This document shows, piece by piece, positions 14,570 through 20,025 of a stretch of 47,949 bases of DNA (its first letter is position 1; the number at the start of each line of letters is the position of its first letter). This stretch comes from Bacteroidia bacterium (GTDB lineage: Bacteria > Bacteroidota > Bacteroidia > J057). The DNA lies in assembly GCA_019695295.1 (NCBI GenBank), contig JAIBAH010000021.1:1-47949 (forward strand), in the 5' to 3' direction. Under the pieces are notes generated by a model. That model searched no databases and was not told the DNA's origin. It was given only the letters and a program-made list of their open reading frames with translations. Both the position numbers and the translations under genes were made by a program.

Positions 14570-17176
14570 TCAGAATCCGATTTTTCCCTGTGAACCTCCT
14601 TCGAGGAGATTATCATTGGAATTATCAAACTCCTTCACGTCTTCGACGGTCATTTGTGAAAGCATCTGAAGCGTTCTCTGCTCTCTGGGTATGTGAGCAA
14701 GTCTGAGATGCTGATTTCTCACTGCTTTTTCAATCACTTTTCTTACTGCACGGCCATTTCCGAAGAATTTATTTCTGCCTGCGTATAAATCTTCAAAATA
14801 TTTCTGCAATTTCTGTGCTGCTTCAGGGTCAAGGGTAAGCCCTTCTTCTTTGAGCATTTGCACCCCGATTTCAAGCAGCTCATTGGCGGTATAGTCGGCA
14901 AAATTAAATTTCCTGTCAAAACGGGATTTTAATCCGGGATTGGTTTCAAGAAACTCATTCATTCTGTCAGGATACCCGGCAACAATTACGATGAGTTCGC
15001 CCCTCATATCTTCCATTCTTTTGAGCAGTGTCTCAATCGCTTCGTTTCCATACTGGTCATTTGCGAGCGAATATGCTTCATCAATAAAGAGTACGCTTCC
15101 TCTTGCTTTTTCGATTAGCTCATTGGTTTTAATGGCGGTTTGACCGAGGAAGGCCCCTACCAAAGCGGCTCTGTCACATTCGATAAGCTCTCCTCTTTCC
15201 AGAATACCGAGGGCTTTAAAGATTTTTCCGATAATTCTTGCCACGGTAGTTTTACCGGTACCCGGATTTCCCATAAATACGGAATGAAGGGAAAACTTAT
15301 TCAGTACTTCTTTACCCGTTTCCTGATAGAACTTCACGAGTTTTACCAGCTCGGTTACTTCCAGTTTCACATTGGTCAGTCCGGTCATATCCTTCAGTTC
15401 ATCCAGGGCTTCCTGTAATAACCCTACATCCTGCGGAATATGTGGCTTGATTCCTTCCGTTGCCTTAAATACGTCCCTTATATCATCCAGGGTAATAGTA
15501 CTTAAATCCTCCTGAGAAATATCGGAAAGATTTTCGCTTTTCATCAAACGTAAACCCATATCCATTTTGGCTTCGTCAATCACGGAATATACAAACCTTG
15601 CATTTCCGAAAGAACGGTCTCTTTTACGATATGCATCCACGAGTTTCTGATAAAGATAGGTATCTACCCCTTCCCCGAATTTCACTGAGCGTTTTTCGGA
15701 GGCTAACTGAGCAATCGCAAATAACTCCTGAGGTGTATAATCCGGGAATTCATAATAGAGATTAAAGCGGGATTTCAAGCCGGGATTTGATTCCAGAAAG
15801 GTTTTCATCTCTCTCGGATATCCCGCCACAATGATGGCTAAATCTCCCTTTCCGTCAGACATTTCCTTAATCAGAATTTCCAGTACTTCTTTTCCGTAAT
15901 CCTTTGAATCTTCTCCGGCACGGGCAAGCGAGTAGGCTTCATCAATAAATAAAATTCCGCCTCTGGCTTTTTTGATTGCTTCTTTCACCTTTGGTGCGGT
16001 TTGCCCTATATATTCGCCCACGATATCCGCCCTGTCCACTTCATGAACGTGGCCTTTGCTTACGAGGCCCAGCCTTTTGTAAATCTGACCCAGCAAACGC
16101 GCAAGCGTAGTTTTTCCGGTACCCGGATTACCCGTAAATACAGCATGTAAACTAATAGTCTGAGCGTCCGCAAAGCCCTTTTCTTTTCTCAGTTTCAGAA
16201 ACTGAAGATACTGAGTATATTCTCTTACCCGGCTTTTGATAGATTCCAGACCGATTAATTCATCCAGGGCTTTCAGTGCTTCTTCAAGGGACTCAGGCTC
16301 TTTTTCTTCCTGATTTACCACCTGACCGGCAGCAATAATCGGAGCAGATCCCGGCTGAAGCATCTGAGGTTCCCCTTCAATATTTTCTTCGCCGGTAGTA
16401 AAGGGGATAATGGAAATCAGAGTATCCATAAATACAATTTCCAGCGTATAATTATCTACAAACCAGGTGCCTCTGTGGTCAGACCCCCAACCGGAAGTAA
16501 TCATAAACGTTTCCTGAGAAGCAGTAATCGTTACAAGTTCACTGGTTTTGCCTTTGAGCTGCCTTGCGTCATTGTAGAAATAAAAGAAGACTTCACATTG
16601 CCAGTCCCTGTTCATGAGGTTTTTAACCGTTAATTCACCCCATATATACTGAGTAGATTTAGCGTCAAACTGAGTATAATACACTCTGTCGGCGAGTGAC
16701 ACGCCTTTATCAGGACCATTGTAAAGTTTCACGCCCCTGATGTTCATATATTTATTATCACTCTGAGTAACGACCCCGGCATCATAAATATAAAACTTCT
16801 GGCTGGCGACAAACACTCCGTCAATATAGGCTTCCCAGCAGTATTCACCCTCTTCCCAGAATTTTCCGGGCTGATCCATTCCCCATCCTTCCCGGATGTA
16901 AATGATATTCTGGTCAACCGGTACCTCTTTGGATACATCAATGCTGCATAATTCTTTTTTCTTTTTTCCTGCACTCATTGAAAAGGCCTTCATCTGAATA
17001 TTTGCATTCCAGGCATTTTCATCAAACTGTTTATTGAAGAATGAAAACTCAGCATACATATACGTAGTTTCCCCTTTATCAAATACCCTGCGATATTTTT
17101 TTTGCCCATCGGCAAGCCATTCCGTTGAGGAATAAACCTTTAGTTCTTTAAATTTGTATTTTTGATCTACAGACAT
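14570..17176 (-). CDS. Tandem CbbX/SpoVK-type AAA+ ATPase with duplicated N-terminal domain
   Basis: An 868-residue protein. Two AAA+ modules of the CbbX class follow each other. The first has Walker A GNPGTGKTT (349-357) and Walker B ILFIDEAYSL (408-417); the second has the same motifs at 636-644 and 694-703. Both carry the NPGLKSRF arginine-finger segment. The N-terminal 265 residues are two copies of a beta-rich domain (about 5-132 and 145-260), each with a GWGxDxxGxW/F motif (GWGMDQPGKF at 98-106, GWGSDHRGTW at 229-238). A Glu-rich linker joins them to the ATPase. No signal peptide or membrane segment, so it is cytoplasmic. CbbX-like ATPases remodel protein partners; the N-terminal domains presumably bind the client. 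The gene stands alone with its own terminator. Client unknown. Confidence 0.88.
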   Translation of the reverse strand: MSVDQKYKFKELKVYSSTEWLADGQKKYRRVFDKGETTYMYAEFSFFNKQFDENAWNANIQMKAFSMSAGKKKKELCSIDVSKEVPVDQNIIYIREGWGMDQPGKFWEEGEYCWEAYIDGVFVASQKFYIYDAGVVTQSDNKYMNIRGVKLYNGPDKGVSLADRVYYTQFDAKSTQYIWGELTVKNLMNRDWQCEVFFYFYNDARQLKGKTSELVTITASQETFMITSGWGSDHRGTWFVDNYTLEIVFMDTLISIIPFTTGEENIEGEPQMLQPGSAPIIAAGQVVNQEEKEPESLEEALKALDELIGLESIKSRVREYTQYLQFLKLRKEKGFADAQTISLHAVFTGNPGTGKTTLARLLGQIYKRLGLVSKGHVHEVDRADIVGEYIGQTAPKVKEAIKKARGGILFIDEAYSLARAGEDSKDYGKEVLEILIKEMSDGKGDLAIIVAGYPREMKTFLESNPGLKSRFNLYYEFPDYTPQELFAIAQLASEKRSVKFGEGVDTYLYQKLVDAYRKRDRSFGNARFVYSVIDEAKMDMGLRLMKSENLSDISQEDLSTITLDDIRDVFKATEGIKPHIPQDVGLLQEALDELKDMTGLTNVKLEVTELVKLVKFYQETGKEVLNKFSLHSVFMGNPGTGKTTVARIIGKIFKALGILERGELIECDRAALVGAFLGQTAIKTNELIEKARGSVLFIDEAYSLANDQYGNEAIETLLKRMEDMRGELIVIVAGYPDRMNEFLETNPGLKSRFDRKFNFADYTANELLEIGVQMLKEEGLTLDPEAAQKLQKYFEDLYAGRNKFFGNGRAVRKVIEKAVRNQHLRLAHIPREQRTLQMLSQMTVEDVKEFDNSNDNLLEGGSQGKIGF

Positions 17177-18195: not shown

Positions 18196-18217
18196 TTTTT
18201 TAGATAAACCTAAAAAA
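18196..18217. promoter_or_regulatory. Candidate metal-regulator operator TTTTTTAG-N6-CTAAAAAA
   Basis: An inverted repeat with 8-base arms lies 15 bases upstream of the -33 element of the metal-import operon. The core TTTAG-N6-CTAAA resembles operators bound by DtxR/MntR-family repressors. The sequence is AT-rich, so chance palindromes are common, and no regulator gene is adjacent. Confidence 0.4.
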
Positions 18218-18232
18218 ATATTTAAACAAATA

Positions 18233-18264
18233 TTTGTATATTACGTAAGAAGTTATTAACTTTG
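18233..18264 (+). promoter_or_regulatory. Consensus Bacteroidota promoter TTTG-N20-TAACTTTG
   Basis: TTTG at 18233-18236 and TAACTTTG at 18257-18264, 20 bases apart, match the Bacteroidota housekeeping promoter. The start codon at 18283 is only 18 bases beyond the -7 box, so the leader would be about a dozen bases. Confidence 0.8.
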
Positions 18265-18282
18265 TAAAAAAAATTGATAAAA

Positions 18283-20025
18283 ATGCAAAAAGTAGCTATA
18301 TTTATTCTGTTTTTGGTTGCTTTAGTACATAACAGCAATGCCGAGTCTCAAAAAATACGCATTGTAGCGACCACTACATTTCTGGCAGATATGGCCAAAA
18401 ATATTGCCGGCATAAGAGGGGATGTAGTCTCTCTGATGCCTTTGGGGGGTGACCCGCATATTTATGAGCCTGTCCCGGAGGACGCAGATAAAATATCAAA
18501 AGCGGACATCATTTTTAAAAATGGACTTACTTTGGAAGGATGGCTGAATGAAATGATTGAGTATTCCGGGACCAAGGGAGTGATAATTACGGTTTCGGAT
18601 GGGATAAAACCCATAGGGAGTGAAATTCACAAAGAAGCTACTGACCCTCATGCGTGGATGAGCATTAAAAATGCCCTTATTTATATTGCCAATATGAAGG
18701 ACGCTTTATCTGCCGCCGACCCTAAGTTTGCCGGTTACTATGAAAGCAATTATATTCAGTATAAAAATGAGCTGGAAAGTTTAGATGTTTATATCCGGCA
18801 GCAGGTAGCCAAAATCCCGGAAGAATACAGAGTGATTGTAACTTCCCATGACGCTTTCCGGTATTTTGGGAACGATTACGGGATGAGGGTAGAGTCTGTA
18901 CTTGGAACAAGCACAGAGTCAGAAGTACGGTTTGAAGATATAAAACACCTGACAGAAGTACTGGACAAATCAAAAATTCCTGCAATCTTTGTGGAGTCCA
19001 CCATCAACCCTAAATTAATGATGCAGATTGCAGGAGACCGGAAACTCAAAATAGGCGGGAAGTTATTTGCGGACTCACTCGGAGATACTGAAAGCGGCGC
19101 TGATACCTATATTAATATGTTAAGGCATAATATCGGTGTGCTTACCGAAGGACTGACCAATCATGCAGTAGTAGCAACTCCCCAAAAAAATGACCGGCAA
19201 TTTATTTATATCATTTCAGGACTGTTTGCGCTTGCGTTCGGATTTGTGGTGGTAAGACTCAATAAAAAAGGGAGCGAAATCAGCAACTGGGCAAACTACT
19301 CTATTGATATACAGAATTTATCGGTTTCATATGACAAAAAACCTATTTTCAAAGATACTTCCCTCACGGTTTCTTCAGGCTATGTTTATGGAATTATTGG
19401 CGGAAACGGCTCCGGAAAATCTACCTTAATCAAATCTATCGTCGGATTAATCCGGCCTGATCAGGGAAAAATTACGATTAACGGACAACCGATTGAAAAT
19501 ATCCGGAAATATGTAGCCTATATTCCCCAAAAGGAAGATATAGACTGGACTTTTCCGGCCACTGTTCAGGATGTAGTCATGATGGGAAGATACCCTTTCC
19601 GTAAGGTGTTTGAAAAATTCAGCAGGGAAGATTATCAGAAAGTCAATGAGGCACTGGAGCAAATGGGTATTGGAGACCTGAAAAACCGTCAGATTGGTAC
19701 ACTTTCAGGCGGTCAGCAACAGCGGGTTTTTATTGCAAGAGCACTGTGTCAGGAAGCCGAAGTATATTTGCTGGATGAGCCTTTTGTCGGAGTGGATGTA
19801 GTATCGGAAGAAAAAATCATGAATATTCTCAAGGATTTGACCCTTAAAGGAAAGATGGTGCTGATTATTCATCACGATTTAGGGAAGGTAGCTAATTATT
19901 TTGAAAGGGTGATTATGATTAATCAGGGTGTGATTGCAAACGGACCTACGAAAGAGGTATTTACAAAAGAAAATATTCAAAAGACCTACGGCGGAAATCT
20001 TGTATTCGGAGATTTATATGTCTAA
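18283..20025 (+). CDS. Metal ABC importer: solute-binding protein fused to ATPase
   Basis: From the ATG at 18283 (a TTG at 18274 is less likely) the protein has 580 residues. Residues 1-20 are a signal sequence. Residues 24-296 are a cluster A-I metal-binding protein with likely ligands H59 (GGDPHIYEP), H123 (DPHAWMS), H189 (TSHDAFRYFG) and D264 (FADSLG). The three-His-one-Asp set is like TroA/ZnuA, suggesting Zn or Mn. Residues 307-325 form one membrane helix. Residues 341-580 are a complete ABC ATPase: Walker A GGNGSGKST (373-381), Q416, LSGGQQQR (474-481), LLDEP, H531. The usual layout has these as two genes. The fusion puts the binding domain in the periplasm and the ATPase in the cytoplasm, provided the signal sequence is cut or acts as a first helix. 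The permease gene follows after 18 bases. Confidence 0.92.
   Translation: MQKVAIFILFLVALVHNSNAESQKIRIVATTTFLADMAKNIAGIRGDVVSLMPLGGDPHIYEPVPEDADKISKADIIFKNGLTLEGWLNEMIEYSGTKGVIITVSDGIKPIGSEIHKEATDPHAWMSIKNALIYIANMKDALSAADPKFAGYYESNYIQYKNELESLDVYIRQQVAKIPEEYRVIVTSHDAFRYFGNDYGMRVESVLGTSTESEVRFEDIKHLTEVLDKSKIPAIFVESTINPKLMMQIAGDRKLKIGGKLFADSLGDTESGADTYINMLRHNIGVLTEGLTNHAVVATPQKNDRQFIYIISGLFALAFGFVVVRLNKKGSEISNWANYSIDIQNLSVSYDKKPIFKDTSLTVSSGYVYGIIGGNGSGKSTLIKSIVGLIRPDQGKITINGQPIENIRKYVAYIPQKEDIDWTFPATVQDVVMMGRYPFRKVFEKFSREDYQKVNEALEQMGIGDLKNRQIGTLSGGQQQRVFIARALCQEAEVYLLDEPFVGVDVVSEEKIMNILKDLTLKGKMVLIIHHDLGKVANYFERVIMINQGVIANGPTKEVFTKENIQKTYGGNLVFGDLYV

Follow-up and report, generated by a model that had tools for sequence, protein, structure and literature searches.

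A predicted metal importer of Bacteroidia in which the receptor and the ABC ATPase form one chain through a transmembrane helix

Organization of the locus

The stretch of DNA analysed here (the window) comprises 47,949 nucleotides of contig JAIBAH010000021.1 from a Bacteroidia bacterium (assembly GCA_019695295.1). A single unbroken reading frame at 18283-20025 on the forward strand encodes 580 amino acids when read from an ATG (64.7 kDa; 62.3 kDa from residue 23 onward), and neither internal stops nor ambiguous bases were found within it. The ORF listing begins this frame at a TTG at 18274; translation more likely begins at the ATG at 18283. The first half of the protein matches the ZnuA family (PF01297) at residues 27-289 with an E-value of 2.1e-80, covering positions 1-262 of the 263 in the profile, and the second half matches ABC_tran (PF00005) at residues 357-501 (8.7e-35). 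The receptor carries the ligand residues H59, H123, H189, and D264, and the ATPase contains all expected motifs, namely Walker A (373-381), Q416, the signature LSGGQQQR (474-481), D498/E499, and H531. Across 15 fused homologues with 34-69% identity to the window protein, the four metal ligands, Q416, D498, E499, and H531 are invariant, as are most residues of the Walker A and signature motifs, with a few (e.g., L474, S377, and T381) nearly so. Pfam, these motifs, and the AlphaFold2 model described below agree with the earlier note on this DNA, which had read the frame as a complete cluster A-I receptor, a single helix, and a complete ABC ATPase (Table 1).

Table 1. Features of the receptor-ATPase locus, with window coordinates and the basis of each assignment.
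Feature	Position	Strand	Basis
Inverted repeat TTTAGATAAACCTAAA, candidate DtxR/MntR-family operator	18199..18214	+	Pattern search, upstream comparison
TTTG - 20 nt - TAACTTTG, Bacteroidetes-type promoter-like sequence	18233..18264	+	Read directly
Signal peptide, aa 1-20, without lipobox cysteine	18283..18342	+	Sequence; cleavage after NSNA placed by eye
Cluster A-I metal-binding protein domain, aa 25-292	18355..19158	+	PF01297; AlphaFold2 pLDDT mostly >90; VIA-align
Periplasmic linker, aa 293-304	19159..19194	+	Predicted disordered (pLDDT <50 at 295-305); conservation 0.12
Transmembrane (TM) helix, aa 305-327	19195..19263	+	AlphaFold2 helix; hydropathy 2.22; flank charges; basic RLNKK at helix end
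Cytoplasmic linker, aa 328-339, without internal start codon	19264..19299	+	AlphaFold2, alignment
ABC ATPase domain (NBD), aa 340-573	19300..20001	+	PF00005; PsaB 7kyo as best solved relative
ABC-3 permease, 292 aa	20044..20922	+	PF00950, 2.5e-71; PsaC 7kyo, 1.4e-48

Predicted structure and topology

The AlphaFold2 model, built from an alignment of 68 relatives, reached a mean pLDDT of 91.6 and returned the order of receptor, disordered linker, helix, second linker, and ATPase with the boundaries given in Table 1; its pTM of 0.61 means that the mutual placement of the receptor and ATPase domains is not to be read from it. VIA-align superimposed the receptor half on AztC (5kzj) with a Z score of 38.0 and an rmsd of 1.4 A over 272 residues, and on PsaA (3ztt) with a Z score of 36.0. 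The best solved relative of the ATPase half was PsaB (7kyo; 2.1e-67, Z 33.2, 48% identity in the structural alignment). Among the structure-comparison matches listed, each covers one half and none the two together; this does not prove that such a chain is absent elsewhere.

Because a Sec-type signal peptide precedes the receptor and a stop-transfer helix with basic residues after it precedes the ATPase, the receptor is predicted to lie outside and the ATPase inside. The topology check that the earlier note had called for bore this out, with positive-inside flanks, the signal peptide, and the single-helix model placing the two ends on opposite faces of the membrane.

Permease and transporter partners

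The next gene is, as had been noted, the permease, and its D44 and H48 align with the metal-coordinating D46 and H50 of PsaC (7kyo), which are essential in PsaBC (PMC11779740). The window genome holds a single ZnuA-family gene, so that no free receptor gene could serve as a backup, and a single strong ABC-3 permease, the second ABC-3 match scoring just 21.7 bits. With one receptor of the ZnuA type and one strong permease available, the permease should form a homodimer and each pump should contain two receptors; PsaBC and MntBC are homodimeric (PMC11779740).

The full-length PF01297 match, the fold, and the ligand set (His, His, His/Glu, Asp) place the receptor in cluster A-I, and the canonical motifs of the ATPase together with the D46/H50 pair of the permease are those of PsaBC/AztAB-type systems. 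The NCBIfam equivalog models scored 233.6 of 350 (AztC), 190.7 of 220 (AztA), and 191.9 of 280 (AztB), and none of the cut-offs was reached among the listed models for AztA/AztB/AztC, MntA/MntC, and SloB/SloC, making the window system a relative of those named subfamilies rather than a member. Among solved structures, the nearest to the ATPase and the permease are of the manganese type, and the H-H-H-D ligand set is one that we take to point to the TroA/AztC kind. The metal is likely manganese, zinc, or iron, judging from sequence.

Permeases of the window genus (292-296 aa) end without the C-terminal DtxR-like domain found in many relatives. In those Bacteroidota, the ABC-3 permease and a DtxR-like metal-sensing domain (Fe_dep_repr_C, PF02742), a putative metal sensor, occupy one chain, as at L011:3264-4526, L016:3298-4584, L020:3198-4433, L043:3939-5234, L052:5721-7010, and L089:5742-7235, the last of which also has FeoA. 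At most fused loci the permease is adjacent, and two fused genomes have it elsewhere; in G217, G331, and G159 it lies elsewhere in the genome.

Distribution of the fused gene

Reading the ORFs at every locus yielded 23 distinct fused loci, spread over six families of the class Bacteroidia (f1, f6, f8, f23, f56, and f65), and the TM helix is present in all of them. Ten of the 13 genomes examined from the window's own family carry the fusion (one of the ten being cut by a contig end), so the absence from close relatives that the earlier note had named as a possible objection does not hold. The remaining three comprise G001, with no ZnuA; G008, where a contig end holds just a fragment; and G009, with separate genes. 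The last is a different lineage of the system inside the family: its unfused receptor and ATPase lie ~20 kb apart (G009:C49:312639-313502 and 333532-334233), and C95 carries a second ABC-3 permease.

A sample of 395 genomes from the class gave 24 matches at threshold, 22 of which were fused forms or contig-end pieces spanning the junction, the other two (G159 and G217) being unfused. In a phylum sample, likewise of 395 genomes, the only fused match came from the window's own genome. Several apparent full-length matches outside Bacteroidota (in Bacillota, Alphaproteobacteria, and Cyanobacteriota) proved to be separate genes once their ORFs were read, and further fusions suggested by open-frame values in other Bacteroidia genomes were set aside because the genes proved, on reading of the ORFs, to be separated by a stop.

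Origin of the fusion

Three states of the locus occur in Bacteroidota: a lipoprotein receptor with a separate ATPase, which is the state of most other Bacteroidota examined; a TM-anchored receptor with a separate ATPase; and the fusion. A lipobox is present in most of the unfused Bacteroidota receptors and in none of the 23 fused loci; lipobox-like strings in three TM-anchored receptors were discounted, lying off the signal cleavage position. The TM-anchored unfused state defines a sister clade of 19 loci, named mostly as Saprospiraceae (one Lewinella), in which the receptor has both a signal peptide and a TM helix at its C-terminus, and the ATPase is the next gene. These receptors often end in a K/R-LN tail (MRLNK*, FKLNK*), and the fused clade has a similar helix and tail, VVVRLNKK in the window protein, that continues into the ATPase. 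A permease beside the receptor-ATPase pair was not found in 18 of the 19 loci (e.g., L039, L040, L053, L081, and L094), a few of which have short flanks.

A maximum-likelihood tree of the receptor and ATPase, with the junction left out, supported the TM-anchored clade at 100/100, the unfused TM-anchored clade at 99/98, and the fused clade at 84/65. Two changes suffice to explain the three states on this tree; for the fused clade, one change is counted in 90% of the bootstrap trees. The most likely order begins with the lipid anchor, passes through the TM anchor, and ends in fusion by loss of a stop codon: in the receptor, a TM helix at the C-terminus would have replaced the lipid anchor at the N-terminus, bringing the C-terminus beside the start of the ATPase so that loss of one stop codon could join the two. 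A basal fusion that was later split once, in Saprospiraceae, accounts for this tree less simply, and, with the fused clade only moderately supported (84/65), more than one fusion or a fission in the sister clade is possible. The three states together document how an importer could pass from a lipid anchor to a TM anchor and on to fusion.

Neighbouring genes might have been joined neutrally, with no functional consequence of the joining itself, once the receptor was TM-anchored, transport proceeding as in the unfused sister clade, which presumably imports metal without a fusion; the free drift of the linkers (below) would fit such an account. We consider this rather unlikely, since the fusion has been retained down to 34% identity in six families and the window genome has no free receptor gene as a backup, even though retention alone is no proof of advantage.

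Linkers and junction

Mean pairwise identity among the fused proteins is 0.52 and 0.55 in the two domains, 0.28 in the TM helix, 0.20 in the cytoplasmic linker, and 0.12 in the periplasmic linker. The linkers also vary in length, with 10-23 periplasmic and 11-25 cytoplasmic residues as delimited by hydropathy. Such poor conservation of both linkers speaks for a passive tether rather than a mechanical transmembrane signal.

A disordered and unconserved periplasmic linker would also suit a protease, which could cut the translated chain and leave the receptor free or shed and the ATPase anchored to the membrane at its N-terminus. This seems improbable: the shed receptor would no longer have the membrane anchor, which is retained in the sister clade as well, all 23 fused loci retain the TM helix, and the alignment shows no conserved cleavage motif. 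We regard as more doubtful still the suggestion of the earlier note that the chain carries a signal across the membrane, with receptor closure or docking relayed directly to the ATPase by way of the TM helix. The topology permits it, with receptor and motor on one chain and a single helix between them, but the linkers are short, hardly conserved, and variable in length, the periplasmic one is predicted to be disordered, and the helix itself is conserved just moderately.

No conserved start codon was found in the junction, and between the TM helix and the ATPase there is none at all in the window or in several relatives, which makes a free ATPase produced by internal initiation unlikely; we rejected separate translation of the ATPase on this ground. 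In four fused pairs the junction showed dN/dS values of 0.05-0.31, in most pairs less tight than the domains and with synonymous sites almost saturated where the pairs are more distant, indicating that the junction is translated and constrained. A stop hidden by sequencing error, raised in the earlier note, is excluded by this selection and by the 23 distinct fused loci, and an assembly or sequencing error joining two genes in this draft genome of 223 contigs is already refuted by the independent genomes with the same fusion, some of them assembled in 3-5 contigs, and by the purifying selection across the junction.

Upstream region

TTTAG-N6-CTAAA occurs once in the window (0.13 expected), as the inverted repeat upstream of the fused gene; the conserved form of this repeat is TTTAGR-N4-YCTAAA. 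A similar site, defined as at least 10 of 12 positions, lies upstream of 17 of the 23 fused genes vs. none of the 19 TM-anchored unfused genes (Fisher p=5e-7, which overstates the difference because related loci are not independent), and also at 4 of 18 unfused lipoprotein loci. The repeat resembles what we take to be SirR/MntR-type repressor sites, a resemblance on which the proposed DtxR-family link rests; a literature search did not tie it to a published DtxR-family consensus. The window genome encodes one DtxR-family protein, on contig C53. Between the repeat and the gene lies the promoter-like sequence of Table 1; the Bacteroidetes promoter consensus is TTTG at -33 and TAnnTTTG at -7. Further upstream on the reverse strand (14570-17176), an 868-aa protein has GNPGTGKTT motifs repeated in its two ATPase modules and appears CbbX/AAA-like by eye.

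Discussion

Proposed working of the importer

We think it probable that the locus encodes a manganese, zinc, or iron ABC importer of the PsaABC/AztABC kind, whose receptor and ATPase form one type-I membrane protein and are passively tethered. The Sec signal would export the receptor half, the TM helix would halt transfer, and the ATPase would fold on the cytoplasmic side; a pair of fusion chains and a pair of permeases would then assemble into a pump with two receptors hanging on flexible tethers of ~12 residues. The shared entrance could dock only one receptor at a time, while the other would stay near at a millimolar effective concentration, and capture and delivery would thus become independent of a diffusing or lipid-anchored receptor. 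In OpuA, an 11-aa linker plus a TM anchor has been estimated to give about 4 mM per receptor (PMC11065425), and the same formula applied to the 12-aa linker here would give approximately 3.2 mM.

More tentatively, the system may represent an undescribed importer class, built on a membrane-spanning receptor-motor chain with an obligate 2:2 composition, in which two permanent receptors might alternate or cooperate and their cycling would be tied to the ATPase subunits; on present evidence we lean against so strong a reading. Whether metal importers follow a type I or a type II mechanism has been stated to be unclear (PMC11779740). The fixed ratio of receptor to motor, together with the unfused TM-anchored sister clade, offers a clean pair for testing whether transport needs receptor release.

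Comparison with known systems

Fusions of receptor and permease are well known, and the receptors of ABC importers are described as free, lipid-anchored, or permease-fused. A receptor joined to the ATPase across the membrane would be a further importer architecture, one in which the number and proximity of receptors are fixed genetically. Our search of the open-access literature returned no description of such a joining, which is weak as proof of absence, and a chain of receptor, TM helix, and ATPase crossing the membrane appears to be undescribed.

The closest unfused counterparts are the TM-anchored loci of Saprospiraceae and Lewinella (L039-L041, L053, L079, L081-L089, L091, L094, and L096), which share the homologous receptor, the C-terminal TM helix, the basic tail, and the ATPase as next gene, but have a stop between receptor and ATPase, a usually non-adjacent permease, and no DtxR-type operator found upstream. 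By sequence and fold, PsaABC of Streptococcus pneumoniae (7kyo/7kyp, 1psz) and MntABC/AztABC have the same three parts, namely the receptor, the ATPase, and an ABC-3 permease with the D/H pair. In those systems, however, the receptor is a protein apart from the ATPase, PsaA being a lipoprotein, whereas the window system has one chain with a TM helix and no separate (lipo)protein receptor; furthermore, the third ligand of PsaA is Glu205, with which H189 of the window receptor aligns.

The earlier note held that known fusions in ABC importers join the receptor to the permease and not to the ATPase. This stands for OpuA and GlnPQ; it does not for NrtC and CmpC of the cyanobacterial nitrate and bicarbonate importers, in which an ABC ATPase and a C-terminal receptor-like domain share one polypeptide (PMC6603209, PMC11349869). 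In those proteins, the ATPase comes first and the receptor-like domain is cytoplasmic and regulatory, with no crossing of the membrane (PMC6603209, PMC11349869), whereas in the window protein the receptor comes first, with a signal peptide and a TM helix. OpuA and GlnPQ are alike in a different respect, having a receptor covalently tethered by a short linker, at least two receptors per homodimer, and a millimolar effective concentration (PMC11065425), all of which are predicted here. Their transporter type and substrate differ, and their receptor is fused to the permease, whereas in the window system the permease is a separate gene and the receptor is joined to the ATPase via its own TM helix.
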